Shown here: positions 40,234-60,546 of the stretch, one piece after another
Layout: each line of letters begins with the position of its first letter
Position numbering within the stretch: the stretch's first letter is position 1
Assembly: GCF_010994755.1 (NCBI RefSeq)
Contig: NZ_WHSB02000016.1
Coordinates: forward strand, 62,001 to 126,000
Reading direction: 5' to 3'
Length of the DNA stretch: 64,000 nt
From: Shinella lacus
GTDB lineage: Bacteria > Pseudomonadota > Alphaproteobacteria > Rhizobiales > Rhizobiaceae
Notes under the pieces: model-generated
What the model was told of the DNA's origin: nothing
Seen by the model: the letters and a program-made list of their open reading frames with translations, nothing else
Database searches by the model: none
Made by a program: the position numbers and the translations under genes

Positions 40234-40929
40234 ATGAGCCTAAGTGATGACGTGAAAAGTATCGTCTGCAGCGACTGTGATTCACCGTTCGTTGAAAGTG
40301 TCTCGAATTTCGCGGCTTGGGAATATCGCGTTCTCTTTGACCGTCTCTTGGAAGATCCAACATTCTCGCCAGAACAGCGACTTCAGGAGTTCTCTCGCGG
40401 TCGCGCGTTAGCGGTGTCGAAGGCTATGGTTCGTGCCGCTCAAAAACACGGCGTGCCTTACGACATTAAACGCTTGAAATGTAACGGCCAAAATAAAGTT
40501 TTGGTAAAGATAGGCCGCATCGTTATTCTGCAGGAACCAATGGCATTTCTCTTTGGCGACAGACCCAAAGCTGCAGCTTATAAAACAGAAATCAGTCGCT
40601 ATTCTGGTGTTGTAACGCAGCTTGAGCTTGACTTGGGCGACAGGCCTTCAAGCCTGCTTGACTGGTCAGATGGGATTCTCGCCGTACTGCTTCATGGTGC
40701 ATCCGGCGCTCGGTTCGGTGAGCGGGACTGTGAGTTAGGGGCATTAATGCTCGCCATTCCGGATGCCGCGTATGAAAACTGGATATTGCGCATTGACCTC
40801 CACGACATTGCGATGTTTGGAAACCAGCCGATCGACGATTCCAAGGCTTTCCGACAGGAGAATGTTCAAGAAGACCGCGTCGTCGTCAAAAGGAAGCTCA
40901 AGAAGCATAAAACGAGATCACATGGCTAA
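40234..40929 (+). CDS. unknown protein paired with an XRE-ImmA/IrrE protein
   Basis: 231 residues with no family I recognise. It has a Cys pair near the start (VCSDCDSPFVES), an acidic middle and a very basic end (VVVKRKLKKHKTRSHG). Its last 8 bases overlap the start of the XRE-ImmA/IrrE gene, so they are translationally coupled. That arrangement resembles a toxin-antitoxin or prophage-type regulatory pair. Lower GC than the left half of the window suggests acquisition. Confidence 0.7.
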   Translation: MSLSDDVKSIVCSDCDSPFVESVSNFAAWEYRVLFDRLLEDPTFSPEQRLQEFSRGRALAVSKAMVRAAQKHGVPYDIKRLKCNGQNKVLVKIGRIVILQEPMAFLFGDRPKAAAYKTEISRYSGVVTQLELDLGDRPSSLLDWSDGILAVLLHGASGARFGERDCELGALMLAIPDAAYENWILRIDLHDIAMFGNQPIDDSKAFRQENVQEDRVVVKRKLKKHKTRSHG

Positions 40930-42142
40930 GGGTGTTGCGACATTTTCCGGACAGAGGTTGACGGAAGCTAGGCTAGCGAAAGGTTTGTACAAAAATGCTC
41001 TCGCCGACCGGATTGGTGTCACCGCGATGCAAATCACGCGGTATGAAGCCAACCAGGATCGCCCGACGCCAGAGAAACTCGGCTCAATCGCAGAAGCGCT
41101 TGGGTTCCCGTATGAATTTTTTACTAGAAAGAGTTGGCCTGAGCCGTTGGGTCCAATTTTCTGGCGCAGTCAGGTTGCCGAGACAAAGACGGCCCGGGAC
41201 ATGACCGAGCAGCGAATGAGATGGCTGTGCGAATTGTTCTGGACACTGGAGGAGGAGCTGGATTTTCCCGGTACGGATATTCCTGAGCTCGATGTGCCAG
41301 ACGACTTCCGCCAGATTACACCGACTATGATCGAGGGATTTGCAGAACGCGTTCGGCGAGATTGGCGATTGAAAGATCTGCCGATCCGCGACGTTGTCTT
41401 GAGTGTGGAAAATGCCGGAATCCCCGTCGTGATGTTAGACATCCCGTCCGAGAAGCAGGATGGCTTCTTTTTCAGGTCCTCTCTTTTAAATCGGGCGTTC
41501 ATCGGCGTGAACGTCCATAGTGTAACCGCCGCACGGGCAAGGTTCGACGTGGCGCATGAACTGGGGCATCTAATTCTCCATAAGTACGTCACGTCGGAAC
41601 AGGAGCGCGACGCAGAACTCCATAAACTTCTGGAGCAACAAGCACACCGCTTTGCCGGGGCTTTTCTTTTCCCGAAAGACCGTTTTTTCGAAGAGGTCGC
41701 CGTTCCGACGTTGGATTATTTCCACGCGCTAAAAAAGCGGTGGGGCATGTCAATCGCTGCGATGATCTCGAGATCGTCTGACCTCGGCATGATCGACAAA
41801 GACGCAAAAAGTCAGCTTTTTATCTCGATGAGGCGTCGAAAATGGCGAGGGCCAAACCGAGAACCGTTCGACAGCACAATGGAGTTGGAGCGACCAAGAA
41901 TGTTGCTGCGAGGTGTGAACGCTCTTTTGGATTCTGGCGAATATTCTATCGATTTCCTTGAACATCTGCTGTCCCTGCCCACAAATGAGATCAACCAACT
42001 CGTAGGCATTTTCGGCGTTGGGGAGAAAATCGGACATCCGATAATGCCAGAGACTTTCCATAAGCCCGCGGTGCGCGCGATGGACCTCGAGACCGGAAAG
42101 CTCATTAGTTTTCCGACGCGAAATCGAGCCAAGATGCGTTGA
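40922..42142 (+). CDS. XRE regulator fused to ImmA/IrrE metallopeptidase
   Basis: 406 residues. Residues 8-62 form an XRE helix-turn-helix (LTEARLAKGLYKNALADRIGVTAMQITRYEANQ). Residues about 150-280 form the ImmA/IrrE zinc peptidase with HELGH at 212-216 and QAHRFAGAFLFP. Known relatives cleave repressors to derepress mobile elements or act as antitoxins that proteolyse partners. The coupled upstream protein (40234-40929) is the probable target. Confidence 0.88.
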   Translation: MAKGVATFSGQRLTEARLAKGLYKNALADRIGVTAMQITRYEANQDRPTPEKLGSIAEALGFPYEFFTRKSWPEPLGPIFWRSQVAETKTARDMTEQRMRWLCELFWTLEEELDFPGTDIPELDVPDDFRQITPTMIEGFAERVRRDWRLKDLPIRDVVLSVENAGIPVVMLDIPSEKQDGFFFRSSLLNRAFIGVNVHSVTAARARFDVAHELGHLILHKYVTSEQERDAELHKLLEQQAHRFAGAFLFPKDRFFEEVAVPTLDYFHALKKRWGMSIAAMISRSSDLGMIDKDAKSQLFISMRRRKWRGPNREPFDSTMELERPRMLLRGVNALLDSGEYSIDFLEHLLSLPTNEINQLVGIFGVGEKIGHPIMPETFHKPAVRAMDLETGKLISFPTRNRAKMR

Positions 42143-42316
42143 TCTCGTCGCAAGTTCTCCTGCAGACGACCTTTACCGTCCAAGCTCGTGTTTTCATGCT
42201 TTTTAAAGTCGCTCGAAAAGCTGGGAGAGCATATCTCGACCCCTAACGGAATCATCACATGCCCTCGCTCTTGGCAAAACCTATGATAGAAGGCCAGAAG
42301 GCTGGGGGACAAACGC

Positions 42317-43162
42317 ATGGAAGACGATGATGACAGGGTAACTCTGCCCACTGGATCGAAGCGCATCATGATTGGTGCGGCGGTATTCAGTCTGGTCTGG
42401 CTCATTGCAGCGAGCATCATTGCTTGGGCCTTCCATTGCGGAGTCCACGCCCCGCTTAAAATCAACGAATGGGGTGATTACGCGGCAGGAGCGTCGGCGC
42501 CCCTCGCGTTCCTCTGGCTTGTGGTTGCTGTGTTTCTACAGTCGAGAGAACTGCGGGAACAGCGACAAGAGCTGTCGTGGACGCGGAAAGAATTTAAAGA
42601 AAACCGGACAGTGATGAGGGAACAGGCGACCGAGGCTAAAAACCAGGCCAGTTTCATAAAAACGCAGACGGATATCCTAAAGAAATCGTCAGACAACGCA
42701 GACGCTGAGGATATCTTCGCTGCCAACGTTGACCTCATCGCTACTAGATTGCGCCAATACACGAACGCATGGAGCATGGTGCTGGAGGAAGGCCAAGGGC
42801 CTGATGGTATCGCACATGGCGTGGTTTTGGGCATCCGAACGAAATTTTATGGTGACGCCTCCGACAAGCGTGTCATCGCAAAGACGGTTCAACTACTTCG
42901 CACAAAAATTCGGGAGATGAAGACCGAGAATCCGAAAGCGAGGCTACATGCGCAATATCCATATGACTTCCAAAGGATCTACCGCGCCGTGATGGAAGCA
43001 ACTGGCAGCATCGCAGCACTTCCGGCCAGCTACCAGATCAAGGCAAGAACACTCGAGCTAGATGAGTTGAAAGAACAGCTCCATTTTCTAGGAGATCACG
43101 CAGGAGTAACACCGTTCGACCCCATAAGCAGGCCCGCCACTTTCCTACCGACTGGCCCTTAG
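42317..43162 (+). CDS. membrane protein resembling putative phage abortive-infection proteins
   Basis: 281 residues. Two N-terminal membrane helices (about 17-38 and 50-72) enclose a short periplasmic loop. NEWGDYAAGASAPLAFLWLV and LQSRELREQRQEL match the pattern of the putAbiC-type family (a W-G-D segment, a helix, then L-Q-x-E-L-x-x-x-x-x-E-L). A coiled coil spans about 75-125, and the rest is a soluble domain of unknown fold. The position in a cluster of defence genes supports an antiphage role. Confidence 0.65.
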   Translation: MEDDDDRVTLPTGSKRIMIGAAVFSLVWLIAASIIAWAFHCGVHAPLKINEWGDYAAGASAPLAFLWLVVAVFLQSRELREQRQELSWTRKEFKENRTVMREQATEAKNQASFIKTQTDILKKSSDNADAEDIFAANVDLIATRLRQYTNAWSMVLEEGQGPDGIAHGVVLGIRTKFYGDASDKRVIAKTVQLLRTKIREMKTENPKARLHAQYPYDFQRIYRAVMEATGSIAALPASYQIKARTLELDELKEQLHFLGDHAGVTPFDPISRPATFLPTGP

Positions 43163-43306
43163 CCAGTATTTCCCGCTTCCGCTCGTAGTGAGACCGGGCA
43201 CGCTGCGTTGCGGCACTTACGGCAGCCGATAACACGAGATTGAGCCGCTGCTAGTATTTGGCGCTCATAGACTTGGTGCGATATACGGATACGGAATGAT
43301 AGCCTC

Positions 43307-45481
43307 ATGAAAGACGCGGAACCGCACGTAAACTGGCCATCGATGATACGGTACGTCGTCGTCCTGGACGAAGACAGCCTCGAAGAGGCAAGCATATTCC
43401 AAGGAATTTCGCCTAGTATGCTCAATATGGAATGGGCCTTGCGGTCGATTTCCGAAATGCCGGCAGACATCTTTGATTTTGGCTTGCCTCTCGAGGCCAG
43501 AAAGGCAAGGCGGATCACAGGTAAGGGCTGGAGTTGGACACCCCTCACAATCAGCAACTTTCTACGGCTCCGCATCACCCATGACGATCCATACTGGGTT
43601 GTATATTCTGCGTCGGAGGCCATCTTCAGCGCACTTTCAGATTGGGAAGGTCGTCAGACACTACCCGTTCTTCATATCTCCGCCGATGACGCTGGCGGCC
43701 TCGCTCCAGATAGAGCGCGATGGACCCATGTGCGCGACCATATTCGGCGCGTTGCAGTGAAGCTCCATGAACGGACGCAAGGGTTCCCGATCGCCGAACT
43801 TCGGAAAACCTTGAAAGCATGGCGTAAGCCCACCGCTCCACGTTTGGATCTCGTTGCCAAACCTCACAACTGCACGATCGCCAACCTCGTCACGCTGCGC
43901 TCGCTCGGTTTCAGCTTCGCGGGCGAGGAACCGCTTATGTCGCCCCCCGGCGATGAGAGCCCGCACATCAATGCGATCGCGGAGTCTGCGAATGCTGTGA
44001 TTTCACAACAAGACAGCGTTGGGGTTTTTCCAGCCCTATTTTCCCATTTTCCAAAACCTGATCGGATCGTTATCGCTCCATCACTATACGCACACACACG
44101 CCAGCGCCTTAGGCCAAACACAGATGCGCCGGCAGGCCTTTTCGAAACTATACGGATCATACAGCAGCAGAAAGGCTACACGTTCTCTGGTCCTGGTGCC
44201 GCCATGTTGCGAACTATGTCCCCTGCTGGCCAGTACATCATGGGGTTGCGCGCTCAGGAATTGAACGTGCAAACCCTCGCAGTCACCCTACGCGCGGCGT
44301 CAACGCTGGCTGCCACATTGCGGCTTCCGAACGGGGTGAACCTTTCATCAGAACTGTCAGATTTCACAGGCCATGTGAGAGGCGGGCGAAGCACCGGTGG
44401 GAACGGCAAGGCCGAGCGTGTGTTTCGCAATGTTCAGAGATCCCTTCGGTCTTATACCCCTCCGGCGTTGCTGGATATTGTTGCCAGTAGCCAGACAGGG
44501 GTGAAGCTTATCGCCGACGCACCGCTTGAGTGGCTACCTGTGGGGGATCTGCCTCTGGCAATAGCTTTGGACGTCTCACGCATTCCAACGACGCCCGGCA
44601 ATCTGATGATGACTCAGCTCATGAGAAGCGAGACGCTTTATCTCAAGCCCAAGGCGTTCGGCGAAGTACTGGTGGTATCCTCCTTTTCCCCGAGTGACCC
44701 GATCCGCCACGACGTCCGAATAGCGATGGAGACCTTCACCAAGACTGCCAAGGAACATCTAAATTTCCGGCAGGTCATAGTGAGTTGCCGCGATCAGTTC
44801 GTCGAAGCCGTCAACAGCTTTCATGGCGCCATGATGATCTTCGACGGTCATGGGTCGCATGATCGCAACAGCGGCGCCGGCTTCCTGCACATCGGCGCGG
44901 AGAAGGTTGACGTCTGGGAACTGCGCGGGAGGCTGCGGCCTCCTCCCGTTGTTGTTCTCAGTGCATGCGATACTCACTCGCCGGATCGCACACACGCCAC
45001 CGCCGGCGCTGGGTTTCTGACTTGTGGCGCAACCTCCGTCGTCGCAACCCTTCTTCCGGTGCGCTCAAAGAATGCGGCCCTCTTTGCCGCTCGCCTTTCG
45101 ATGCGCGCCGCGTGGTATACGCATGCGGTTGTCCATGGCTCGAAGCGGCCCATACTCTGGAGTGAAGTTGTAGGTAGTATGCTTCGCCTCGACTTTCTTT
45201 CCGATTTGATCGGCCGATTGGAAAAAAAGAAAAAGCTCTCCCCACGGCCAGCAGCCGATCTGCGCACAGAAGTGAACATGTTCGTCCACACTCGAGACAC
45301 CGATTGGTGGGCGAATGCCAAGGCTAGGCTAATGGAGGTGACAGGGCTTGAAGCTGACGATATGGCGCGCTTGGTTTCGAAGACGATCGCCGAGGGCGAC
45401 AGCGTGCGGTACACACATCTAGGAAATCCAGATTTGCTTTGCATCACCGACAATGATGTGCTGAGCGCTGTCCACCCCTGA
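43307..45481 (+). CDS. CHAT-domain caspase-like protease
   Basis: 724 residues. The C-terminal CHAT domain has the catalytic His in IFDGHGSH (H515) and the catalytic Cys in VVVLSACDTH (C554), with AGAGFLTCGATSVVATLLPV after it. The first 440 residues have no recognised domain; APLEWLPVGDLPLAIALDVSRIPTTPGN may be the hinge. CHAT proteases act as executioners in several antiphage systems, usually with a sensor partner. No TPR repeats or partner protease substrate are obvious. It could act with the Abi-like membrane protein 144 bases upstream. Confidence 0.85.
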   Translation: MKDAEPHVNWPSMIRYVVVLDEDSLEEASIFQGISPSMLNMEWALRSISEMPADIFDFGLPLEARKARRITGKGWSWTPLTISNFLRLRITHDDPYWVVYSASEAIFSALSDWEGRQTLPVLHISADDAGGLAPDRARWTHVRDHIRRVAVKLHERTQGFPIAELRKTLKAWRKPTAPRLDLVAKPHNCTIANLVTLRSLGFSFAGEEPLMSPPGDESPHINAIAESANAVISQQDSVGVFPALFSHFPKPDRIVIAPSLYAHTRQRLRPNTDAPAGLFETIRIIQQQKGYTFSGPGAAMLRTMSPAGQYIMGLRAQELNVQTLAVTLRAASTLAATLRLPNGVNLSSELSDFTGHVRGGRSTGGNGKAERVFRNVQRSLRSYTPPALLDIVASSQTGVKLIADAPLEWLPVGDLPLAIALDVSRIPTTPGNLMMTQLMRSETLYLKPKAFGEVLVVSSFSPSDPIRHDVRIAMETFTKTAKEHLNFRQVIVSCRDQFVEAVNSFHGAMMIFDGHGSHDRNSGAGFLHIGAEKVDVWELRGRLRPPPVVVLSACDTHSPDRTHATAGAGFLTCGATSVVATLLPVRSKNAALFAARLSMRAAWYTHAVVHGSKRPILWSEVVGSMLRLDFLSDLIGRLEKKKKLSPRPAADLRTEVNMFVHTRDTDWWANAKARLMEVTGLEADDMARLVSKTIAEGDSVRYTHLGNPDLLCITDNDVLSAVHP

Positions 45482-45539
45482 ACCCCCTGTTCTTTACACT
45501 AGGATCAGCCGCGGGCCGGGCGTGTTGAAAATACCCAAG

Positions 45540-46544
45540 CTACGGCGACGCAAAGAAAGTTCTTTCGTACATTCTCCACCCCAAAGTAGAGATACGAGTA
45601 TCTTTTGGCATCTGACCCAACTCCAGAATTGTTGTGTGGCGGCGAATATTGACTTCGGTCGCAGCCATCCAAGACGCAATAAGATTTGTCTTCCAGGTGA
45701 GCTGTTTAGGCAACGGCGTAATCAGACCCTTGCGAGGGAACACCTTCTCATTGACAAATCCTGTGCATAGCTCGCCGAAGGCCCCAGTGGTCAGGTCCGC
45801 GATGGCCGCTAGGTCTTCGAGAACGAGACTTCCATCATCTGCAATGCCCGTTGTGCTGCAGCGAATGTGGCCTAGGGAATGAGAGAAATAAGAAGCCATA
45901 ACACGCTGGAAAAGTTGCGTTAGGTCCGTAAGCAAGCTCACGTTCGCGGCAATATCGTCCTCATCGATAATCCAAAGAAGGTCTTGTCCCGGTGAGGACA
46001 GCCCTGACAAAAGAAATGCGCTTAGGTGCAAAACTCGGAGCAAGCGCTCTTGCACATTCGGCTTCCATCGCTTCAATAATTCGGCGCCCACCTCATCCTC
46101 GGCAGGCTTGGTGAAAAATGATCCACCCGCTTTGGAGATGGCAAACTGTGCCAAGTAGCCTTCGATACCAGCTGCCGCTTGCATGAATGGCACCAGTGCC
46201 TGACGCCGCATTCCATCGTTGAGTGCCTTAAATGACATTCGGCGGCGGTTCGGCAGAATAGCATCACGGAATTGGCGTTGCAGCGCCAACCATTCTTGGT
46301 TTTTAGCCAAGTCCAGTATCAAAAACGTGTAGGTATCAAAATGCTGCTTTTGATGATGGCCGCCGAAATCTGCGACAAGTAGAAGCGTGCGACCCCGCTT
46401 GAGGAATGGGAATTCCGAACGGTTAGCACTGACATCAGCGTTAAAGCTGTCCGCCAAAAGAGCCCCCACACCCGCAGGCGAAAAGGCTGGTTTGTGGATA
46501 GACGAAGGTAACAGATCGGATGAAACCCGAAAGGAAGTTGCCAT
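45540..46544 (-). CDS. unknown protein divergent from the DUF5131/TcmP genes
   Basis: 334 residues, with no family recognised. TLLLVADFGGHHQKQHFDTYTFLILD near residue 55 and DLLWIIDEDDIAANV near 190 place acidic residues on hydrophobic strands in a way reminiscent of RNase H-like folds (such as DUF3800); this is speculative. It shares a 145-base divergent spacer with the three-Cys DUF5131 gene, including an inverted repeat, so the three genes may form one module. It converges on the CHAT gene. Confidence 0.65.
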   Translation of the reverse strand: MATSFRVSSDLLPSSIHKPAFSPAGVGALLADSFNADVSANRSEFPFLKRGRTLLLVADFGGHHQKQHFDTYTFLILDLAKNQEWLALQRQFRDAILPNRRRMSFKALNDGMRRQALVPFMQAAAGIEGYLAQFAISKAGGSFFTKPAEDEVGAELLKRWKPNVQERLLRVLHLSAFLLSGLSSPGQDLLWIIDEDDIAANVSLLTDLTQLFQRVMASYFSHSLGHIRCSTTGIADDGSLVLEDLAAIADLTTGAFGELCTGFVNEKVFPRKGLITPLPKQLTWKTNLIASWMAATEVNIRRHTTILELGQMPKDTRISTLGWRMYERTFFASP

Positions 46545-46651
46545 ATGCGTTCAGCTTGGTCGTCGAGATAAAGTTTTCACTGTGGAGAAAAGTCGGCAGC
46601 ATTTCTACAATCTAAAGACGAGCACTGCAAATTAACGGGAATTAAGGGTAT

Positions 46652-46668
46652 GTTGATGTCATATCAAC
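46652..46668. promoter_or_regulatory. inverted repeat in the divergent DUF5131 spacer
   Basis: GTTGAT (46652-46657) and ATCAAC (46663-46668) flank 5 bases, forming a 17-base operator-like element 22 bases before the DUF5131 start. Confidence 0.45.
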
Positions 46669-46689
46669 CGGACTATCGGAGGGTTGCAA

Positions 46690-47466
46690 ATGGCTGAGAC
46701 ACAGATCGAATGGACCGACGCGACATGGAATCCCGTCGCGGGTTGCACCATCATGTCCGCTGGATGCACCAACTGCTACGCAATGGCCATGGCAAAGCGA
46801 CTGGAAGCTATGCATGTTGACAAATATGTGGGCTTAACCCGTAAGAGCGGTACAAGGACAATCTGGACCGGGGTTGTGCGGGAAGACGAATCCGCTCTCC
46901 TCATTCCGCATGCCTGGAAAAAGCCCCGCAAGATTTTCGTCAATTCGATGAGCGACCTTTTCCATGATTCGGTCTCCGATGAATTCATTCTAAAAGTCTG
47001 GCAGGTGATGCGCGAGACGCCACACCACAACTACCAGATTCTCACCAAACGGCCAGAACGTATGGCGACTGTTATCCACCAGGTGATTGGCGACGTTTTG
47101 CCGAACGTGTGGCTTGGAACCAGTGTCGAGGACAAAGCTGTGACGGACCGCATTGACCATCTTCGTCAAGTGCCGGCAGCCATTCGCTTCATCTCCTTTG
47201 AACCGCTGATCGGTTCTGTCGGAGCCATAGATCTTACGAATATCCACTGGGCTATCGTTGGCGGAGAAAGCGGCAAATCTGCTCGACCACTGCAGGAGGA
47301 GTGGATCGATGAGATATACAACACTTGCCTAGAACACGATACGGCGTTCTTTTTCAAGCAATGGGGAACGTGGGGCAAAGATAACAAACGGCGTTCGAAG
47401 AAAGCAAATGGCCGAGAATATAAGGGTCGCACATGGGATCAGATGCCAATCCATGCAGTATCGTGA
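46690..47466 (+). CDS. DUF5131 (phage Gp37/Gp68 type) three-Cys-motif protein
   Basis: 258 residues. The N-terminus IEWTDATWNPVAGCTIMSAGCTNCYA carries C19, C26 and C29, the three-Cys motif that resembles a radical-SAM cluster site. NSMSDLFHDSVSD, YQILTKRPERM, NVWLGTSVED and WAIVGGESG are family landmarks. ATG 46690 has GGAGGG upstream. The family is common in phages and defence-rich regions and is paired by definition with TcmP proteins, one of which follows 34 bases later. The reaction is unknown. Confidence 0.92.
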   Translation: MAETQIEWTDATWNPVAGCTIMSAGCTNCYAMAMAKRLEAMHVDKYVGLTRKSGTRTIWTGVVREDESALLIPHAWKKPRKIFVNSMSDLFHDSVSDEFILKVWQVMRETPHHNYQILTKRPERMATVIHQVIGDVLPNVWLGTSVEDKAVTDRIDHLRQVPAAIRFISFEPLIGSVGAIDLTNIHWAIVGGESGKSARPLQEEWIDEIYNTCLEHDTAFFFKQWGTWGKDNKRRSKKANGREYKGRTWDQMPIHAVS

Positions 47467-47500
47467 GCTGACCACAGAACGTTTTCACAGTGGGGGATGA

Positions 47501-48748
47501 GTGGTCAGGAAACGGTATGATTGGGAAGGTGGCGCGCAACTTGACGAGCACTCGAAGCGCAAACACAAGATTCTGCACGAGTACGTTCTGCAATATATAG
47601 TCGTCAGATGTAAGCACCCGCAGCAGCCACGTTTTCGCTTCGCCATTATCGACGGTTTCGCTGGTGCCGGACGATATGCTGGAGGCGCCGTGGGCTCGCC
47701 GCTTATATTCGTTGACCGAATGCGGGTGGCTGCCGAGCAGATAAATCTGGCACGGGCGATCGAAGGGCTCTCCAACATTGACCTCGAATGCCACTTGATT
47801 CTGAACGACGCCGACCCAGCCGCAGTTTCTCTACTTAGGCAGAATATTGCTCCATTGCTTGCCGAAGTGCGGGAAACCAGCAAAAATCTTCGGATTGAGA
47901 CCAGCATCCTCAACGAGCCATTCGAAGACGCTTACCCAAAGATCAAAACGATACTAACATCGGCGAAAATTACGAATGTGCTGTTCAACCTGGATCAATG
48001 CGGACATAGCTATGTGGACCGCGCCACCTTGGTAGATATAATCCGGACCTACCAATCCGAAATTTTCTACACCTTCAGTATCCAGTCGTTCTTGGCCTTT
48101 TTGAGCCGAACAAACCCCGATCTCCTGCTGTCACAACTGGCTTTCCTTGGCTTGCCAATTCGAGATATCGAACAGTTAAATTTTCCTATGAGCAACGAAC
48201 GATGGCTGGGCACGGCTGAGCGCCTCGTATTCGATGCGTTTCAGGTCTGCGCGCCATTTGTGAGCCCTTTCTCCATCCACAATCCAGATGGATGGCGTTA
48301 CTGGTTTATCCACTTCGCCAAGTCGTACCGCGCCCGCCAAGTCTATAACAACGTCTTGCATGACAACAGCAGCTCGCAAGCCCATTTCGGCAGGGCCGGC
48401 CTAAATATGCTGAGTTACAACGCTCGCCATACAGACGGCCATCTTTACCTATTCGATCAAGCAGGGCGCACAACAGCAGTTGATCAACTACGGGATGATG
48501 TCCCTCGACTTCTAGGCGAGCGGGGCCATGCGATTAATGTCCTTGCTTTCTATGAAAGCATCTACAATTTGACGCCTGCGCATTCGGCCGACATACTTTC
48601 ATCGCTAATTGGTAACCCCGAGCTCAAGGTCACGACCAAATCCGGAGGCGAACGCCGCAAGGCCAGTACCATTAAGGTAGATGATACTATCAGGCTCAAC
48701 CCGCAACGGACATTCCATCAACTTCTACGGCCGATTGAAAACCGCTGA
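47501..48748 (+). CDS. tcmP: three-Cys-motif partner protein TcmP (1)
   Basis: 415 residues. The N-terminal region resembles a class I methyltransferase: AIIDGFAGAGRY (motif I), GSPLIF, LILNDADP and LFNLDQCGHSYVD in the position where relatives have D-P-F/Y-G. The C-terminal part (about 260-415) is unknown. It starts at GTG 47501 behind GGGGG and is almost certainly cotranscribed with the DUF5131 gene. The family name comes only from this genomic association. Confidence 0.88.
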   Translation: MVRKRYDWEGGAQLDEHSKRKHKILHEYVLQYIVVRCKHPQQPRFRFAIIDGFAGAGRYAGGAVGSPLIFVDRMRVAAEQINLARAIEGLSNIDLECHLILNDADPAAVSLLRQNIAPLLAEVRETSKNLRIETSILNEPFEDAYPKIKTILTSAKITNVLFNLDQCGHSYVDRATLVDIIRTYQSEIFYTFSIQSFLAFLSRTNPDLLLSQLAFLGLPIRDIEQLNFPMSNERWLGTAERLVFDAFQVCAPFVSPFSIHNPDGWRYWFIHFAKSYRARQVYNNVLHDNSSSQAHFGRAGLNMLSYNARHTDGHLYLFDQAGRTTAVDQLRDDVPRLLGERGHAINVLAFYESIYNLTPAHSADILSSLIGNPELKVTTKSGGERRKASTIKVDDTIRLNPQRTFHQLLRPIENR

Positions 48749-48766
48749 GCAGAATTCTGATTGTAT

Positions 48767-49678
48767 CTAGGTGGATCCTTTCCGGACCTTAGGTAGCTTA
48801 TCCCCCATTCTCAGGATGTAATCTGCACCCTCAAGGCCCTTGCGATGCGGGCCGGCCCACAACAAATAGTAAAGCGGTGCGCCACGCGTGTTGCAGATCA
48901 GCCTTGGCGTCGACACGAAGCCGAATGCGTCCTTCAGGTTCCGCCGATACAATTCTAGCAAGCGGTCAGAATAATCGTCTCGCTTGCGGAGTTCTGTGGA
49001 TGCGAACAGGCCATGGGCATCAGAAGAGTAAACCTCATCGAACCATTCGCGGCTACCGAAGTAGCGATCCAACGTGTCTGCCCAAGCGACGGGAACTTTG
49101 CCATCATTGGGGAGCATTCGATTGAGCGCCATGTTGAGCGCGAAATTCACAACAACCTCGAACAGTCCGGTATTCGCCAAGGCCTGTACGCTCGACCACT
49201 CGAGCCTCGCACCAAAAGGGTCGAGAAACGCGACGCCACGATGACTACTCTTCGAAATTGCTTGGCCTGCGACCCATGCAATTCCTTCTGTTGCTGGCGC
49301 TTTTAGTTTCGTTATGTGCCGGCGCTCGCCGAATTCGGCTTCGACATCGCTCAGTTCCTCGGCGCGGTTAGCATCGGGTTCTATAAAAACGTAGCGTGAA
49401 AAGGGGTTGGCTATGCTAAGCGCAACCCTGGGCGATCCATCAAGGAATTCAGCCTGCCCAGAATCTTGTTCGGCGGGCGCTTCCAATAAATCGAGCATTG
49501 CGAGCGGCTCATTCTTGCTACGAATCTTTGCGCGCCCGCCACCCGCAAATGCGTCAACATAGATGGTGCGCCACGGCTGGTTCTTCAGGACCTTCGTATA
49601 GAAATCGAGATAGCGGGCCAGGATATCTAGCTTTTCTTTTGCCCATGGGCCAACCTCAGCGACCATCAGAACACTCAC
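48767..49678 (-). CDS. tcmP: three-Cys-motif partner protein TcmP (2)
   Basis: 303 residues from GTG 49678 (ATG 49666 is an alternative). The methyltransferase-like motifs are complete: TIYVDAFAGGGRA, DGSPRVAL, YVFIEPD and VAFLDPFGARLEW. It converges on the other TcmP gene 18 bases away and is transcribed away from Hachiman. The two share the family but little sequence, so they are not a recent duplication. Confidence 0.85.
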   Translation of the reverse strand: MSVLMVAEVGPWAKEKLDILARYLDFYTKVLKNQPWRTIYVDAFAGGGRAKIRSKNEPLAMLDLLEAPAEQDSGQAEFLDGSPRVALSIANPFSRYVFIEPDANRAEELSDVEAEFGERRHITKLKAPATEGIAWVAGQAISKSSHRGVAFLDPFGARLEWSSVQALANTGLFEVVVNFALNMALNRMLPNDGKVPVAWADTLDRYFGSREWFDEVYSSDAHGLFASTELRKRDDYSDRLLELYRRNLKDAFGFVSTPRLICNTRGAPLYYLLWAGPHRKGLEGADYILRMGDKLPKVRKGST

Positions 49679-49807
49679 AGCGATTCATCCAAGCCCACAA
49701 CGTAGGGGTGTTTTGAACGCCATTCAATTGGCGTGAACACCTCAAAGAGAATTACGCAGTGCTTCGAAGCGGTTTGTGATGTCGTGTGCAATACCCAGCG
49801 TTGGTGC

Positions 49808-52800
49808 CTACGGTAGTTCCCAGCGGGCTTCGCCACGGCCAATCCTTATTATTCGGGCGCTCTGGCCGTCGGCCGCATATTCAACATGCAACAGGCGGGG
49901 AGAGAATTGCCTTAGGCGATGTTTAATGCCAACTACGTGCTTGAAATCTGGCGTCGTTACCGAGACCACTCCGTCAGCCGGGTTGATGCTGATCCGACCG
50001 GGGATCGCGCAGTTGAGGAATGCTGGAAGGGCACTTTGCATATTCCATTCCTGCGCTGCCCATTTAACTACTGGCCCCGATAAGGCCTCGTTTCGGAACT
50101 GTTTCCAGATGGAGCCAGTGTTGGCTGTCGGCCAGTCTGGCTGGTCGCTAAGTGCTGCAATCTCATTTGAACCTAACCACTGGTTCATTTCCCCACGCGT
50201 CACGAAAGCGGGTTTGGTCTCACGGATGGCGGCCATAGCCGCGATCCGCGAGGGCAGGCCTGCTCGAACTAGCATCGCCATCATTGTCTGCGGAACGCCC
50301 GCCTCAATAGTTGCAGCGGCGCTGCCCTCAATGGTATCGCTTTCACCACCCTCGGCGCGTCGACGCATGCGGACGGCTTCGATCGCCCAGACGAGCCGGT
50401 AAACAAAAGCGTCCTCGACAACTCGCATGTTTTCGAGCCCAAGAGCGACGACGTCTGTACCAGCGAGCCAAGCACCAAGCAGGTCGCGCCAGTTGCCAGG
50501 CAGCTCGACATCCGGAACGAATGGCCGGATCGCGAACAGGCGTTCGGCCATGCCAATGAGCGACGCGCTGAGAACAGGGAGGTTTCCTGCCAAGGCGGCG
50601 GCATCGGCTTGATCCAGCAAAGCGGTGAGATCCGCCGCTATCGCGTCGATAGCCAAGCCAGCTTCAAGCCCGACACCCATGGCAAACGTCGCGCGACGCT
50701 GGTTTACGGTAGACTTGTTCCAAATCAGGCTTGCGCGTGCCCAAAGAACCCAGAGCTGGTTCGATCGAGTTTGGGGGCCGAGGCGACCGATCTGGCGTGC
50801 CCAAAGCGAGCCAGTCAATGCCTCGTCAAGAAGACGCGGGAGTTCCGCACTGTCGGTGTCGAGAGCCTCGATCAAACCAAATACGGTTGCGTCCAACCGC
50901 TCGATCAAGCTTTCGATTGAGTCCGTATCCTCCGCCTGGTCTTGCGGATACCATGCTTCCTGCGCGTTGGCGAGATACTCGATAGCGTCGGCCCGAAGGA
51001 AGACGTTTGTCCGTGCGAGACGCGTTATGACTTCGGAGATGACTGAAATGATACCGCTCGTCAATGAGCGGGCCTTTGACGATCCGACAAGCTCCCGCCA
51101 GGCTCGGGCCCGCCAGTTTTCGGGCTGGTACATGACGTGAAGCACAAGGCCCTCCAGGTCGACAAAGGCGCGGCCAGCCCTACCCGCCACGTTGGCGAAC
51201 TCTTCGCCGGACAGCGGCACGCCCGCCCGATAGAGTGTGGGAATGAGAAGCACGGCGGCATTCAGATTGAGCCCCTGCGCAAGAGTAGGCGAGGCGACGG
51301 TTACGCGGAGAATCCCGGCGGCAAGCAATGCCTCGACCTCTCGGAGAAAAGGGCCCGGCAAACGCCCGTGGTGTATGGCGACGCCAATGGGCAAGCATTG
51401 CACCGCGGGATGGTTTGGACCCAACCATTCGCGACCGACGGCCAGCGCGCGTTCCACCTGCGCGGGGTCATCGAGCAACGACGCCAGATATCCGCGCCTG
51501 TGAAGATCGACAACAGTTTCCGCGTAACCTTCAACATGGTCGCGTTGCGTGCAGAAAATCAGCGCTCGCTTCCCCTGAGCCGAAAACCTCCACGCGGCCG
51601 CAAGCGTCAGCTCCTTGTTGTCTCTGGGAAACGGAGTTCGCCGTGGGCGAATAGCCGGCTCCTCGGGAATGAAGTGCCTTATGTAGGGGCCACCCGCTTC
51701 GAGGTCGAAGCCTAGCCGGCCGGATTTTCCCTGCCACGTGAGTGTTCCAAAACGCTGTCGGGTGGGGCGCCAACCCGACTGTATTGGAGAACCGGGTGCA
51801 TCACTGCGTATCCAAGCGGTGAGATCATTGAGCTGGTCTCCATCAGGGAGTATCGCTGAGAGGCACACGATACGGCGGGCTGCATTGTCCGGACGGCGGA
51901 GTAGTCGTTGCACCAAGCTTTCGTAACGTATCTCGCGTTCACTCGGTCCAATGAGATGGCCCTCATCGAGGACGACCAGCCCAACGTCGGCGATGATGGT
52001 GGGATCGTTACGAAGCGCGAAGTCCAGTTTCTCCGGCGTGGCTATTACGATATCCTGCGACCGAAGGGCGTCCTCATCGCCGATCGCCACACCACTGGCG
52101 CCATAGAGCGAGGAAACCGTGAACCCGAGGCTTGCAAATGTCTTCCGAAAGGAGCGCTCCGTCTGCGCAGAAAGAGCTCGCAGTGGTGTTACAATCAGAA
52201 CGCGATGACCAGATGCGAGCGCCATTAACGCGGCGATCTCGGCAATTCGCGTCTTTCCGGCGCTCGTCGGAAGAGCAACGACAAGATCATCAGCGAGATC
52301 TATCGCGCGCCGCGCCGCCTCCAGTTGCGACGGCCAAAGTTCGACCTCTGCAACACGTCTGGAATAGAGTTCTCCGACAAAGAGTCTCCGCAGCGCCCTA
52401 TATCCTTCGGCACCAGCCGGCCCCTCGACGGGAAGGATTTGATGCAGGCTGCTAGCCCACAGGTCATCGATCAGGTTCAGGGCGATCCGTGCAGTCCACC
52501 ACAGGCTCACCGCACTTGCGTGCTTGGCCAAGGAGATTGCTCTGCGCAACAACGACCTCGCCTCATCGACGAGGGCTGCGACTCCCGTCTGAAGTGCGAA
52601 TTCGAAAAAGGCGAGCGAACGGAAGATCGTCGTCGTGACAACGAGCCTTACCACATCGTCCGGGTCAAGCTCACCTTCCGCTGCAGACCGCGTAACGCTC
52701 TCGTCGCCATGGGCCGGATCGAGAAGCCAATTTCTTGCTTGCGTGCCCAGCCTGTCGAGGTCTCGCAGGATGAGAAACGCTAGTGCTTCCTCAGGTGGTG

Positions 52801-53209
52801 CGAAATTCGGCCGGTCAGTTCGCTGTGAAATTAGCGAAAAGGCCAATGCGGAATAACTTGCAAGATGATATGATGCGGCGCCTGCTATGCGATAAAAACC
52901 TCGGTTGACGTCATCCGGCGCGCCATTTTGAACCAGCGCCTCAAACGCATTGCCGGCCCGTGCAAAGCCTCTCCGCCAAACCTCTGGCTCGCCCTGCGCC
53001 TCGCGAAGAGCCATGGATGCCCGCAACAGCGATAAGGCGTATTCTGCAAGATCCGTGTCGATCGTGTTGCCGAATGCAGGCGCGTCGTCTGGAAGAACGC
53101 CGTCTTGACGAACGATAGAACGCGCCTCACCGCGAGCCTGCAGCCGGCCTCTGGCGCCGTCTGCAGCGACCAGGTTTAGGAAGGTTGTTAGCTCCTCAAT
53201 CGTTTCCAA
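49808..53209 (-). CDS. hamB: Hachiman helicase HamB
   Basis: 1133 residues of a Ski2-like superfamily 2 helicase. A helical N-terminal region (1-285) precedes RecA-like domain 1 with Walker A PTSAGKT (314-320) and DEGH (415-418), then domain 2 with TLAQGLNL and NVAGRAGRA, and a large C-terminal helical part. It overlaps hamA by 14 bases. In characterised Hachiman, the helicase holds HamA inactive and releases its nuclease on sensing damaged or phage DNA. Confidence 0.9.
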   Translation of the reverse strand: METIEELTTFLNLVAADGARGRLQARGEARSIVRQDGVLPDDAPAFGNTIDTDLAEYALSLLRASMALREAQGEPEVWRRGFARAGNAFEALVQNGAPDDVNRGFYRIAGAASYHLASYSALAFSLISQRTDRPNFAPPEEALAFLILRDLDRLGTQARNWLLDPAHGDESVTRSAAEGELDPDDVVRLVVTTTIFRSLAFFEFALQTGVAALVDEARSLLRRAISLAKHASAVSLWWTARIALNLIDDLWASSLHQILPVEGPAGAEGYRALRRLFVGELYSRRVAEVELWPSQLEAARRAIDLADDLVVALPTSAGKTRIAEIAALMALASGHRVLIVTPLRALSAQTERSFRKTFASLGFTVSSLYGASGVAIGDEDALRSQDIVIATPEKLDFALRNDPTIIADVGLVVLDEGHLIGPSEREIRYESLVQRLLRRPDNAARRIVCLSAILPDGDQLNDLTAWIRSDAPGSPIQSGWRPTRQRFGTLTWQGKSGRLGFDLEAGGPYIRHFIPEEPAIRPRRTPFPRDNKELTLAAAWRFSAQGKRALIFCTQRDHVEGYAETVVDLHRRGYLASLLDDPAQVERALAVGREWLGPNHPAVQCLPIGVAIHHGRLPGPFLREVEALLAAGILRVTVASPTLAQGLNLNAAVLLIPTLYRAGVPLSGEEFANVAGRAGRAFVDLEGLVLHVMYQPENWRARAWRELVGSSKARSLTSGIISVISEVITRLARTNVFLRADAIEYLANAQEAWYPQDQAEDTDSIESLIERLDATVFGLIEALDTDSAELPRLLDEALTGSLWARQIGRLGPQTRSNQLWVLWARASLIWNKSTVNQRRATFAMGVGLEAGLAIDAIAADLTALLDQADAAALAGNLPVLSASLIGMAERLFAIRPFVPDVELPGNWRDLLGAWLAGTDVVALGLENMRVVEDAFVYRLVWAIEAVRMRRRAEGGESDTIEGSAAATIEAGVPQTMMAMLVRAGLPSRIAAMAAIRETKPAFVTRGEMNQWLGSNEIAALSDQPDWPTANTGSIWKQFRNEALSGPVVKWAAQEWNMQSALPAFLNCAIPGRISINPADGVVSVTTPDFKHVVGIKHRLRQFSPRLLHVEYAADGQSARIIRIGRGEARWELP

Positions 53210-53972
53210 GGGCGAGAGCTCCTTCGTACGAAAGCCTTATGAACTCCTGGTGATCAACGATGCGAAGATGAATAACCGTGTGCGTCCGCTCGGGACCGGC
53301 GGCCTGAAGATCATCAATGAGCGCCTGAGGTGTTGCATTTCCTGACATCGTAAAAAGAGCGTGGTCTATGCGTGTCGCAGGTACTGCTCGATTGGCCACT
53401 TCATTGCGTATCGCACGTCCGACCGTCGCGCTTTCATCTTCGCGCTCCATTAATCGGTCGGCGATGAAAAGCAGGGAAGTCGCAGTCGGACGGCCGTTGT
53501 CGCGGGAGAGGGCCATTCGGGCTTCGGATATTGTCGCGCCCGCCAGTTGCGCACGGCTCTTGGCCTCCCCCTTTAGCAGGAAGAGATCGCCGGCGGCGTC
53601 CATACGCACTCCGATAAAGTCGTCGCCTCGCAAGGCCATCTCGCGTCCATCTTTGTAGCGAAGTCGCCGAACTGGAACGGAAAAGCCAAGTTGCTCCTCA
53701 ACAAGTTCCGTTGCTAAGATTTCGCCGAGTTCGCCTGATCGTGCACGTGATGTTCGGGGAAGGCGCTCAGCCAATAGGGCGGCAGCGCCAGGAAAGCCCA
53801 GATCACGGATGTCATCGGCAATGCGCTCCATGTCGTCGTAGTGCGAGCGAAGGATATCTGGAAGCCGATCGGCGATTGCCGCCCGCCCACCGTCGAGTTC
53901 TGTCAGGCGCCGAAGATGCTTGCGGCCATCCTGCTGATGATCACTGTCGCACCAATCATTGAATAGTGGCAC
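53196..53972 (-). CDS. hamA: Hachiman nuclease HamA (DUF1837)
   Basis: 258 residues. The C-terminal half is a DUF1837 PD-(D/E)xK-type nuclease: SGELGEILATELVEEQLGF (E81/E84), LRGDDFIGV (D117/D118) and LFLLKGEAKSRAQ (E136, K138). GTG 53972 is chosen for the GGGGGG three bases upstream; a TTG at 53993 is possible. The 14-base overlap with hamB and the gene order match known Hachiman loci. It is the effector of the system. Confidence 0.88.
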   Translation of the reverse strand: MPLFNDWCDSDHQQDGRKHLRRLTELDGGRAAIADRLPDILRSHYDDMERIADDIRDLGFPGAAALLAERLPRTSRARSGELGEILATELVEEQLGFSVPVRRLRYKDGREMALRGDDFIGVRMDAAGDLFLLKGEAKSRAQLAGATISEARMALSRDNGRPTATSLLFIADRLMEREDESATVGRAIRNEVANRAVPATRIDHALFTMSGNATPQALIDDLQAAGPERTHTVIHLRIVDHQEFIRLSYEGALALGND

Positions 53973-54034
53973 GTTCCCCCCTTGCCGTCGCAACTCGTCT
54001 GGTCACGTTCGGTCATCCATGCCATTGCCTCGAC

Positions 54035-54067
54035 CTACTCAACTAGTCCGAGTAGGCAGGCTTACTC
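54035..54067. promoter_or_regulatory. repeated operator half-sites upstream of hamA
   Basis: CTACTC (54035-54040), GAGTAG (54050-54055) and TACTC (54063-54067) form two overlapping inverted repeats with spacers of about 8-9 bases, 63-95 bases before the hamA start. Such arrays commonly bind repressors of defence genes; no obvious regulator gene is adjacent. Confidence 0.45.
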
Positions 54068-54082
54068 GCCTTTTGTGTTAAA

Positions 54083-54343
54083 TTACAACAGCCAATTCAC
54101 TTTACTGAGAGTATCCGCGATTTTTGACGCGAAATGGGGCTCGATCCGCCCAGCGTGTTCAATTTTGCCGTAGATGTGCTTGCGCATGCTCAGCACGGAG
54201 CGGAACCCTATCGCTTTCGCGTAATCGGACGGTAAGACGCCGCATGGGACAGCTCGGCGCGGAGGAAGCGCCGATCGCCCTGCCATAAGGCGCTCGTGAA
54301 TTCGAACCCTTTTTGGAATGGATTTCTCTAGATTACACCCCAC
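54083..54343 (-). CDS. doubtful small protein upstream of Hachiman
   Basis: An 86-residue open frame with a basic N-terminus and VLPSDYAKAIGFRSVLSMRKHIYGKIEHAG, which could form helices. It overlaps the end of the RHE_PE00001 remnant by 16 bases, has no clear ribosome site, and I recognise no family. It may be the tail of a broken gene or not coding. Confidence 0.25.
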   Translation of the reverse strand: MGCNLEKSIPKRVRIHERLMAGRSALPPRRAVPCGVLPSDYAKAIGFRSVLSMRKHIYGKIEHAGRIEPHFASKIADTLSKVNWLL

Positions 54344-54591
54344 GCTAGAAACCTCCCCCTCCCCGTCATTTCGCGAAGCCCAAGCTCCGTCACGATCCGC
54401 CTCGCCGCCTGCGGCGTGACCCCGAGCGTTTTGGTGACCGTCCCGGCATGAACGAGCGGTGTCGCCATGACGAGATCGACAAGCTCCGGCAGTTTCGAGG
54501 AGATCCGCCTCCCCGACAGTTTCCGCTCCATCATTTTTCGCGGGAGCGCCAAGCGGTCATGCTCTTTCATGCCGATCTCGGCGGCCGCGGT
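54328..54591 (-). pseudogene. C-terminal remnant of an RHE_PE00001-family (DUF1612) protein
   Basis: The frame TAAAEIGMKEHDRLALPRK to ELVDLVMATPLVHAGTV and LGVTPQAARRIVTELGLREM is the conserved C-terminal helix-turn-helix of this rhizobial family, whose intact members are about 350-400 residues. The 5' part is absent; the remnant begins about 20 bases after the ScpB-like stop. In other plasmids the intact gene follows the ScpB-like gene, so an internal deletion has occurred. Confidence 0.72.
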
Positions 54592-58282: not shown

Positions 58283-59374
58283 ATGGCGTTTCAACCTGAT
58301 CGCGCTTTCAACGATCTTCCGGCTCTCCCGCCGACGCAGGATATCGAAACCAAGGCTGTGCTGAAAGCCTGTATCGAGGCACGAGCGGCGCTGGCCGAAT
58401 TGAAGGCCTCCGGGCGGCTTATTCCAAATCAATCGGTGTTGATCAACTCGATCCCGCTCCTCGAGGCGCAGGCGAGCTCGGAGATCGAGAACATTGTCAC
58501 GACGACCGATCGTCTGTTCCGGTTCGCCAACGAGGCCGGGAATTCTCCGGATTCAGCGACGAAGGAAGCGCTGCGCTATCGAACCGCCCTCCACCAGGGT
58601 TTCGCCATGCTGAACGAGCGCCCGGTGTCGATCGCGATGGCTGTGGCGGTCTGCCGGACCATCAAGGGTGTCGATCTCGACATCAGGGCAACGCCTGGGA
58701 CCGCCTTGCTCAACGACGCGACCGGAGAGATTATCTACACGCCGCCGGAAGGCCGCGCCGTGCTCCTGGATAAGCTTTCAAACTGGGAGCGGTATATTCA
58801 CGAGGCAGAGGACATCGATCCGCTCGTCCGGCTCGCCGTCATGCATTACCAGTTCGAGGCGATCCATCCGTTCACCGATGGCAACGGCCGCACCGGCAGG
58901 GTGCTCAACCTGCTCTATCTCGTCGACAAGGGGCTTCTTGACATTCCGGTACTCTACCTGAGCCGCTACATCATCGGCAACAAACGCGCCTACTATGACC
59001 GGCTGCTGCGGGTTACGACCGACGCCGCGTGGGAGGACTGGATCCTCTACATGCTGGAGGGCATCCGAGAAACCGCCTTGTGGTCGAGCGCGAAGATCCA
59101 CGCTATCCGTGACCTTCTCGATGAAACCGGCGCCCGTATCCGCCGAGATCTGCCCAAGATCTATTCGCGCGAACTCGCCGAGGTGATTTTCGTCAACCCC
59201 TATTGCCGGATCGGCGACCTCGTCTCGGCCGGAATCGCAAAGCGCCAGGCCGCGTCGGTCTATCTCAAGGCTCTCGTCGATGACGGTCTCCTGAGAGAGG
59301 CAAAGGCCGGGCGGGAAAATCTCTACATCAATCCCGCGTTGATCGACCTGCTGACGGCGGATCGTAGGCAATGA
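58283..59374 (+). CDS. fic: Fic-family AMP-transferase
   Basis: 363 residues. The active-site motif HPFTDGNGRTGR (195-206) is intact. An N-terminal inhibitory motif SSEIEN (65-70; S/T-x3-E-G/N) places it in class II, where the inhibitory helix is in the same chain. Residues about 295-355 form a winged helix (CRIGDLVSAGIAKRQAASVYLKALVDDGLL). It probably AMPylates a host protein and may bind its own operator. It overlaps the serine recombinase start by 4 bases (ATGA). Confidence 0.93.
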   Translation: MAFQPDRAFNDLPALPPTQDIETKAVLKACIEARAALAELKASGRLIPNQSVLINSIPLLEAQASSEIENIVTTTDRLFRFANEAGNSPDSATKEALRYRTALHQGFAMLNERPVSIAMAVAVCRTIKGVDLDIRATPGTALLNDATGEIIYTPPEGRAVLLDKLSNWERYIHEAEDIDPLVRLAVMHYQFEAIHPFTDGNGRTGRVLNLLYLVDKGLLDIPVLYLSRYIIGNKRAYYDRLLRVTTDAAWEDWILYMLEGIRETALWSSAKIHAIRDLLDETGARIRRDLPKIYSRELAEVIFVNPYCRIGDLVSAGIAKRQAASVYLKALVDDGLLREAKAGRENLYINPALIDLLTADRRQ

Positions 59375-60276
59375 CCCGCTCTCCCTCCGGTCGCCTGATT
59401 GGTTATATCCGCGTTTCGACGGACGAGCAGGCGACAGAAGCGCAGGAAATCGAATTGCGTTCGGCCGGCTGCAGCATCATCGTTCAGGAGCATGGATCCG
59501 GCGCATCGCGCGCTCGGCCGGCGCTGGCGAAGCTCCTCCGCGAGATCTCCGCCGACGACACGCTGGTCGTCGTCCGCCTCGACCGTCTGGCTCGCTCCGT
59601 CAGCCATCTTCTCGCGGTGATAGAGGAGCTGGGCGAGCGGAATGCGCATTTCCGTTCTTTACGGGACCCTATCGACACGACCACGCCGCAAGGCATGTTT
59701 TCTCTCCAGGTCCTCGGCGCTGTCGCCCAGCTCGAACGCGCTTTGATTTCCGAGCGAACCAAGGCGGGCATCCGTGCGGCGAAATCGAAGGGCAAGCGGC
59801 CGGGCAACCCCGGCATTCGTGAACGCGAGCCCGAGATGCTCGCCAAGGTGACCGCGGCCCAGAAGGAGGCCTACGGAAAACGTATCCAAGTGTCGCTCAA
59901 CCAGTGGCTTCCGACGGTAAAGCGTATGCGGCCGGATCATACCTGGGACGAGATCGCCCGCATGCTGAAGCAGCGAGGGAGCGACTGGACAGCTGAGCGC
60001 CTCCGTCGCGCGGTGAAATGGTTGGTCACGGAGCACCTTGCTGATCCAGGGCTGCTCAAGAAGTCCCCTGCCCGGCCGCCAGAAGATCGCTTGATGAGCC
60101 TCGTCGCCGGAATCCATTCGTCAGATCCAGACCTGACGATTAGAGAGATCGCCACCCAGCTTGAACGGCTCCATGAGCGGACGCCCCGCGGCGGGACGAG
60201 ATGGGCGCCATCCTCCGTAAAAAATCTTCTCGACCGCGCAAAGCGGATTGGCCTCGTTGACACTGGCATTGAGTAG
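59371..60276 (+). CDS. serine recombinase (resolvase/invertase family)
   Basis: 301 residues. The catalytic domain begins LIGYIRVSTDEQATEAQEIEL with the nucleophile Ser in RVST, and has VVVRLDRLARSVSHLL and GAVAQLERALISERTKAGI. The C-terminal 130 residues are longer than in simple resolvases and contain helix-turn-helix-like repeats (TWDEIARMLKQRG; TIREIATQLERL). It is coupled to fic. Such enzymes resolve cointegrates or invert DNA; no res site was identified. Confidence 0.92.
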   Translation: MTRSPSGRLIGYIRVSTDEQATEAQEIELRSAGCSIIVQEHGSGASRARPALAKLLREISADDTLVVVRLDRLARSVSHLLAVIEELGERNAHFRSLRDPIDTTTPQGMFSLQVLGAVAQLERALISERTKAGIRAAKSKGKRPGNPGIREREPEMLAKVTAAQKEAYGKRIQVSLNQWLPTVKRMRPDHTWDEIARMLKQRGSDWTAERLRRAVKWLVTEHLADPGLLKKSPARPPEDRLMSLVAGIHSSDPDLTIREIATQLERLHERTPRGGTRWAPSSVKNLLDRAKRIGLVDTGIE

Positions 60277-60336
60277 CGGGCAAAGCTCGGCCTCACACTG
60301 GTCAACCGCAAGCGCCGTCCAAGGGAAGATGAAACC

Positions 60337-60546
60337 GTGGAAACCGTCACGATCGAAAGCCGCTCCGATTTCGCGCAATGGGCGATCGAACGCGCCACCG
60401 CCATCATAGCTGAACAAGGCGGCAATCTTGCTATGGCTGCTCGCGGGGGCGATGATAGCAGGGTCGCGGAAAGCGCCAACGCGCTCGGCCAGGCAATCGT
60501 CGATGCTCTGCTTGAAGTCTTCGACGGCCTCGTTCCGCAGGAGTAA
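60337..60546 (+). CDS. small hypothetical protein
   Basis: 69 residues from GTG 60337: SDFAQWAIERATAIIAEQGG and VAESANALGQAIVDALLEVFDGL, helical and acidic. AAGGGAAGA lies upstream. I recognise no family. It follows the recombinase by 60 bases. Confidence 0.45.
   Translation: METVTIESRSDFAQWAIERATAIIAEQGGNLAMAARGGDDSRVAESANALGQAIVDALLEVFDGLVPQE

Follow-up and report, generated by a model that had tools for sequence, protein, structure and literature searches.

Four genes of Shinella lacus (Rhizobiaceae), encoding a DUF5131 protein, two three-Cys-motif partner (TcmP) proteins and a 334-aa protein of an unnamed family, travel as one cassette among different neighbours. They lie at positions 45540-49678 of a 64,000-nucleotide stretch of contig NZ_WHSB02000016.1, here called the window. 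The reading that we tentatively prefer, with less than even confidence, is a mobile anti-phage cassette resembling a restriction-modification system with radical chemistry. It builds on co-inheritance of the genes, coinciding borders, two predicted folds, conserved acidic residues, purifying selection and the setting in a defence island. All four open reading frames named in a preliminary description of the locus are present as stated there.

45540..46544, minus strand: gene of the 334-aa protein (unnamed family), a predicted RNase H-like nuclease (D59, E166, D194/D196, D244/D250)
46652..46668, strand not applicable: inverted repeat of the divergent spacer, GTTGAT-N5-ATCAAC; exact in the window but broken in two of four close relatives
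46690..47466, plus strand: DUF5131 protein (phage Gp37/Gp68 family), 258 aa, predicted radical S-adenosylmethionine (SAM) fold with CX6CX2C (C19, C26, C29)
47501..48748, plus strand: long TcmP, 415 aa, DQCG, with a C-terminal GMT-like winged helix-turn-helix (wHTH) domain; PDC-M30A-like, DQ clade
48767..49678, minus strand: short TcmP, 303 aa, DPFG; PDC-M41A, likely start ATG at 49666

The DNA match to plasmid pSymA of Sinorhizobium meliloti spans 45540-49666 at 82% and ends at both points, and the S. meliloti 1021 versions of the four proteins are 84-91% identical. BovA, the left neighbour in the window, is absent there, and on the right an 845-aa helicase matching PDC-S28 (E 0) stands in place of Hachiman. 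This helicase is apparently Hna, taken as such from its place and size in a record that is unannotated at this point. The match to locus L005 also starts at this border (45542), and BovA has no match in L019 (S. meliloti) or L005. Locus L004 retains BovA on the left, and its match is lost at 49790 on the right. Because the borders of the match coincide while the flanking genes differ, the four genes are regarded as one travelling piece. The most likely start of the DUF5131 gene is the ATG at 46690, following GGAGG. For the short TcmP the ATG at 49666 is more likely than the GTG at 49678, because the similarity to S. meliloti ends there. The DUF5131 and long TcmP genes, both on the plus strand, are separated by 34 bp. 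All four genes are under purifying selection: against L005, dN/dS is 0.04-0.13; in the comparison with S. meliloti it is 0.07-0.10 for three of them, and dS of the short TcmP is saturated.

Relatives of the 334-aa protein were considered in 24 loci (the window, L004-L016, L018, L019-L024 and L124-L126; the match in S. meliloti 2011 was left out). Both DUF5131 and TcmP genes adjoin the relative in 13 of them (the window, L004-L007, L009, L010, L012, L013, L019, L020, L024 and L124), L019 and L024 being near-copies. The same four genes are found in the window, L004, L005, L019/L024 and L020, so that the co-occurrence in other genomes on which the preliminary description depended is real. In L006, L007 (at 8001-8828, by tblastn), L009, L010, L012 and L013 the 334-aa gene adjoins pairs of other lineages, and L007 and L012 likewise combine two TcmPs, one DUF5131 and this gene. 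When TcmPs near a 334-aa gene are labelled on the TcmP tree, six changes are required, compared with a mean of 8.2 for shuffled labels (10 of 500 shuffles as low). Two labelled rows are second TcmPs of their own loci (the window and L007), and for this reason only three separate placings are relied on: the DQ group surrounding the window, that of L012/L013 (also within DQ), and that of L006 in a DP branch. The occurrence of the family beside TcmP-DUF5131 pairs of different lineages and the four-gene cassette with its defined borders are new findings.

The 334-aa protein has no credible family in Pfam, NCBIfam, PADLOC or PHROG (best E 0.015). DUF3800 and other known Pfam families were rejected, as no credible family was obtained among 42 members; the best Pfam match (E 0.003, squalene synthase family) was judged to be chance. 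The predicted structure has an RNase H-like fold, with RNase HII as the top match. Among 21 aligned members D59, D196 and D244 are invariant, and E166, D194 and D250 are retained in 20; the D-E-D-D residues were mapped onto the predicted fold by secondary structure only. We conclude that this is a conserved unnamed family of predicted RNase H-like nucleases; the predicted fold and the conserved acidic set are new here. The reading therefore shifts from modification to modification plus nuclease. The nucleic-acid or nucleotide modification system suggested earlier is kept as a proposal, but the putative nuclease partner had been missed. The family occurs in 2/385 genomes of a class sample and 4/397 of an order sample (own genome counted in each, at most five candidates scored per genome), and no member was found by patterns in viral contigs or by tblastn in phages. 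A distant relative (about 27%) in L021 is divergent from a DUF4238 protein (5732-7876), possibly a different partnership.

The DUF5131 protein matches PF07505 (E 3.8e-103) and the PADLOC models PDC-M41B (1e-101) and PDC-M30B (1.5e-96). Its predicted structure is a radical-SAM fold (partial TIM barrel), nearest to spore photoproduct lyase, and RlmN, an rRNA enzyme, is among the top fold matches. The canonical cluster motif of radical-SAM enzymes is CX3CX2C, although the superfamily also includes members with other variant spacings. Instead of the canonical spacing the protein has CX6CX2C, which is present in 39 of 41 DUF5131 proteins; the cysteines are invariant in 33 aligned sequences, the two proteins lacking the motif having been excluded beforehand. 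The radical-SAM cluster suspected in the preliminary description thus gains a predicted fold and a retained three-Cys motif, and we predict a radical-SAM enzyme; the fold prediction and the spacing are new here. A DUF5131 profile had no sequence match among Protein Data Bank (PDB) chains, and PDB sequence searches with the four proteins singly and with two profiles gave nothing meaningful.

Both TcmPs match TIGR04474 (long, E 1.8e-62; short, E 2.5e-52). In PADLOC the long protein matches PDC-M30A (E 4.6e-19) and the short one PDC-M41A (E 3.8e-60). The C-terminus of the long protein contains the GMT-like wHTH domain (PF22560, E 9.7e-7), which was not found in the short protein. Of 48 TcmPs found, 37 were aligned, after removal of near-copies and of some sequences that were incomplete or second copies. 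D51, G55 and D165 are invariant (37/37) and F53 is present in 90% or more, so that motif I, D-x-F-x-G, and the motif IV aspartate are both in place. The TcmP profile retrieved RlmJ in five of six PDB rows (E 0.005-0.048), and profile-profile comparison scores the match to RlmJ at probability 65 (E 6.1e-5), the RlmJ alignment used having nine sequences and low diversity. RlmJ is the only detectable relative of known function. With the RlmJ-like motifs this weak match supports the earlier view of the TcmPs as methyltransferase-like.

The motif difference between the two copies, DQCG (from residue 165) in the long and DPFG in the short, is real. However, it does not mark a catalytic site lost in one copy: on the tree of 37 proteins the 16 with the DQ motif form one clade (SH-aLRT 99), so that this is a clade-wide state, which is also a new finding. 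The short M41-like proteins form a separate clade of nine rows (SH-aLRT 96). The idea that the DQ type is an inactive subunit needing a DP-type partner does not hold in general and was rejected: of the 11 sampled genomes encoding a DQ-type TcmP, nine have just one TcmP match (genome G281 has two, our own three). All eight other members of the M41-like clade have a DUF5131 of their own, whereas the short TcmP of the window has none. Elsewhere in the same genome (contig 40, 433013-434598; L001) there is a second complete pair, a DUF5131 convergent with a DPYG TcmP of the short-TcmP clade.

In the class sample (385 genomes, own included) TcmP exceeds the cut-off in 29 genomes and DUF5131 in 54. 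DUF5131 lies within 3 kb of 31 of the 32 TcmP matches (26 on the same strand, five convergent, none divergent), or 28 of 29 without the three from our own genome; the sole other match starts 138 bases from a contig end. Conversely, 30 of 59 DUF5131 matches have TcmP within 3 kb. Wider flanks were read for 20 of the 32 loci, and 19 neighbour proteins were scanned against Pfam. Several neighbours match no family. Genes of housekeeping or transporter type adjoin the pair in five loci (L085, L086, L089, L094, L097), an HNH protein is about 300 bp upstream in L088, a Uma2 protein is the neighbour in L092, and L090 has a phage capsid gene nearby and is a prophage. In L084 (4601-5560) the gene of a DQ-type TcmP shares its last 4 bp with that of an Mrr-type restriction endonuclease, as though a different nuclease had filled the position of the third gene. 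On a Phaeobacter plasmid (L133, 7043-8485) DUF5131-TcmP is followed, after 38 bp, by a dGTP triphosphohydrolase, and a caspase-family protein is encoded upstream. On an Agrobacterium plasmid (L132, 1-4833) the pair neighbours both an HTH/ImmA pair and genes resembling CBASS (DncV-like cyclase, patatin, ThiF). The idea that one fixed third gene accompanies every pair was rejected, as the neighbours vary (Mrr, HNH, Uma2, dGTPase, capsid, housekeeping); the Mrr, HNH and Uma2 cases are too few to count, and no rule of swapped effectors is drawn from them.

DUF5131 was found in 159 of 50,697 phage records, and 15 loci were chosen by hand from 40 listed. TcmP is beside it in two of these, Synechococcus phage Ssp-JY39 and Gordonia phage BaxterFox. 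In the temperate BaxterFox (L128, 3728-5724) the two genes, DUF5131 on a strand unannotated there, are situated between the integrase and the repressor. A DNA methylase is annotated within 4 kb in six of the 15 (Panchino, in a note, RcapNL, Atu_ph08, Estave1, vB_LagS-V1 and ZS04); none is annotated within this distance in the other nine.

The immediate neighbours of the cassette confirm the defence-island setting and are the CHAT protease and the Hachiman genes named in the preliminary description:

43307..45481, plus strand: BovA (Borvo, CHAT protease), outside the cassette, E 3e-193
49808..53209, minus strand: HamB (Hachiman helicase), outside the cassette, E 0
53196..53993, minus strand: HamA (Hachiman), behind HamB, PF08878 E 1.5e-16

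To the left of Borvo there is a RosmerTA-like pair at 40234-42142 (RmrA, E 1.8e-104; RmrT, weak, E 9e-7), and the island therefore spans at least 40234-53993. Further genes at 58283-62260 encode a SoFic-like Fic protein, a serine resolvase and replication protein C (61040-62260), the last of which suggests that the window is part of a plasmid. An Rfam scan of 43000-54500 and a tRNA scan found nothing. Four of ten neighbour proteins from other loci match PADLOC models: the S. meliloti helicase (PDC-S28), DrmD-like proteins in L006 and L013, and a Mads-like protein in L009.

The inverted repeat reported in the divergent spacer is present and exact. It is the sole match in the window with at most one mismatch; at least one such match occurred in 16 of 100 shuffles of the window. 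It is not a conserved element: L004 and L020 have it intact, L005 and L019 in broken form, and a conserved operator was rejected on these grounds.

Under the preferred reading, a mobile anti-phage cassette, the predicted radical-SAM enzyme DUF5131 and the methyltransferase-like, wHTH-bearing TcmP would act together to modify nucleic acid at a base or nucleotide. The 334-aa protein would be a dedicated Mg2+-dependent nuclease cutting nucleic acid with the wrong mark. The short TcmP would work with the same, single DUF5131 and might broaden or change the modification. A modification enzyme and a nuclease, both predicted from fold or motif, are encoded together and co-inherited. We infer that the pair would act on nucleic acid and not on protein or a free nucleotide, that the nuclease would be active and would discriminate by the mark, and that the outcome would be defence; the substrate and the chemistry are likewise proposals. 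In a more specific form the cassette would represent a new restriction-modification class, where a radical-SAM enzyme and a non-canonical methyltransferase write a hypermodified base and a nuclease of a new RNase H-fold family reads this mark and cuts unmarked or phage-marked nucleic acid. We consider this form possible but rather doubtful.

Several observations weigh against the preferred reading. The 334-aa gene is absent from every other TcmP-bearing genome of the class sample; pairs lacking it are thus more frequent than pairs with it, a further new finding. The pair therefore has a job of its own, and either the modification itself must act or other nucleases serve the pair. Nine of the 24 loci, all with distant 334-aa relatives, have neither TcmP nor DUF5131 nearby (L018, L125 and L126 viewed about 1.5 kb each side; in L015 and L016 the gene is near a contig end). 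TcmP occurs without DUF5131 in L008, at a contig end, and in L011, as a fragment only. Housekeeping genes adjoin the pair in L085, L089, L094 and L097, and six of the ten scanned neighbour proteins have no PADLOC match. Neither TcmP has the DPPY/DPPF form of motif IV, and Pfam gives no target-recognition domain besides the wHTH of about 80 aa. By Foldseek alone the match of DUF5131 to spore photoproduct lyase reaches only E 0.0037, and the methylase rate in phages comes without a matched control. Finally, no experiment on the pair was found in the literature searched, in agreement with the earlier statement that no function has been demonstrated.

The main rival is an abortive or toxin-like RNA system, in which the pair modifies an RNA (rRNA or tRNA), or senses infection via the wHTH, while RNA cleavage by the RNase H-fold protein halts the cell or the phage. 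The kinship of TcmP with the rRNA methyltransferase RlmJ and the presence of RlmN among the DUF5131 folds speak for it. We still hold it to be unlikely: the best fold match of DUF5131 acts on DNA, the phage genes are near annotated DNA methylases in the six loci given above, and there is no toxin-antitoxin gene layout. A distinctly improbable rival is viperin-like: DUF5131 and TcmP would make a changed free nucleotide toxic to phage polymerases, and the RNase H-fold protein would remove it from host nucleic acid, by analogy with RNase HII, which removes ribonucleotides. The 20 sampled pairs read with flanks have no such third gene (not every neighbour being annotated), the motifs of TcmP look like those of methyltransferases whose substrates are polymer bases, and there is no direct evidence for a nucleotide pocket.

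The genes could also be an island coincidence, in which a PDC-M30 pair happens to adjoin an orphan PDC-M41 TcmP and some unrelated gene with no joint function. Defence genes cluster by nature, and the M41-like TcmPs elsewhere, including that on contig 40, own a DUF5131. We nevertheless find this very unlikely, given the borders relative to S. meliloti, where the flanks differ, the recurrence of all four genes in several loci, the presence of the 334-aa gene next to pairs from other lineages, and the repeated combination of two TcmPs with one DUF5131. An equally remote reading takes the pair for a repair or housekeeping modification system on mobile DNA. Spore photoproduct lyase is indeed a repair enzyme, some pairs adjoin housekeeping genes, and several phage DUF5131 genes are near recombination genes. 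On the other hand, the distribution is patchy (29/385 genomes), the pair has the status of a PADLOC candidate and defence neighbours, and it is carried by BaxterFox between integrase and repressor.

The preliminary description called the system undescribed, which is too strong, as DUF5131 with TcmP already constitutes the PADLOC-DB candidates PDC-M30 (A, B) and PDC-M41 (A, B). PDC stands for "phage defence candidate" in the available part of PMC11514479. PDC-M30 is named in the P. aeruginosa literature: the accessible text of PMC10855318 reports it as predicted in 32 strains, of which 68.8% were phage resistant, a correlation only. No mention of PDC-M41 and no naming of DUF5131, PF07505, TIGR04474 or GMT-wHTH was found in the literature searched. 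The three-Cys-motif partner is named there, with TcmP mentioned, in the portions available, only in tables. A search joining radical SAM with base modification or defence found nothing describing the DUF5131-TcmP pair; PMC10853773, judging by the part available, concerns phosphorothioation. DUF5131 and TcmP, both widespread and neither with a known function found in the literature searched, are now tied to a nuclease-like partner and to predicted folds. If they write a new mark, it would be added to the few radical-SAM chemistries that act on nucleic acid, and RNase H-fold restriction reading a radical-SAM mark would bring new mark, writer and cutter together. As the four genes are present in the tractable laboratory strain S. 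meliloti 1021, where they apparently adjoin the studied hna, the function of the three-Cys-motif protein and TcmP is directly testable.

Compared with known systems, the TcmPs share with RlmJ, the 23S rRNA m6A2030 methyltransferase, the order D-x-x-A-G-x-G, GSP and motif IV aspartate, as well as the weak profile match. However, they have DPFG or DQCG rather than DPPF/DPPY, a PF04378 match was reported for neither, and the long form adds the C-terminal wHTH. DUF5131 differs from spore photoproduct lyase and viperin in having CX6CX2C and not CX3CX2C. The 334-aa protein is similar to RNase HII and the RNase H superfamily in predicted fold and conserved D-E-D-D. It is longer (334 aa versus 200-300), sequence similarity was not found, and strand 1 reads VADFGG, without the DEAGRG signature motif of the RNase HII family. 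In S. meliloti the PDC-S28 helicase taken to be Hna directly adjoins the same four genes on pSymA. According to the available text of PMC12445080, hna and SMa2243 (TcmP) form one putative transcription unit there, and hna alone restores, and suffices for, phage resistance. The window encodes the components of both PADLOC candidates, a TcmP-type A protein with an adjacent DUF5131 B protein. For PDC-M41 (short TcmP and DUF5131) the short TcmP and DUF5131 match M41A and M41B, but the short TcmP shares the DUF5131 of the long one. For PDC-M30 (long TcmP and DUF5131) the long TcmP and DUF5131 match the A and B models, the only models seen, and to these the window adds a second TcmP and the RNase H-fold gene.

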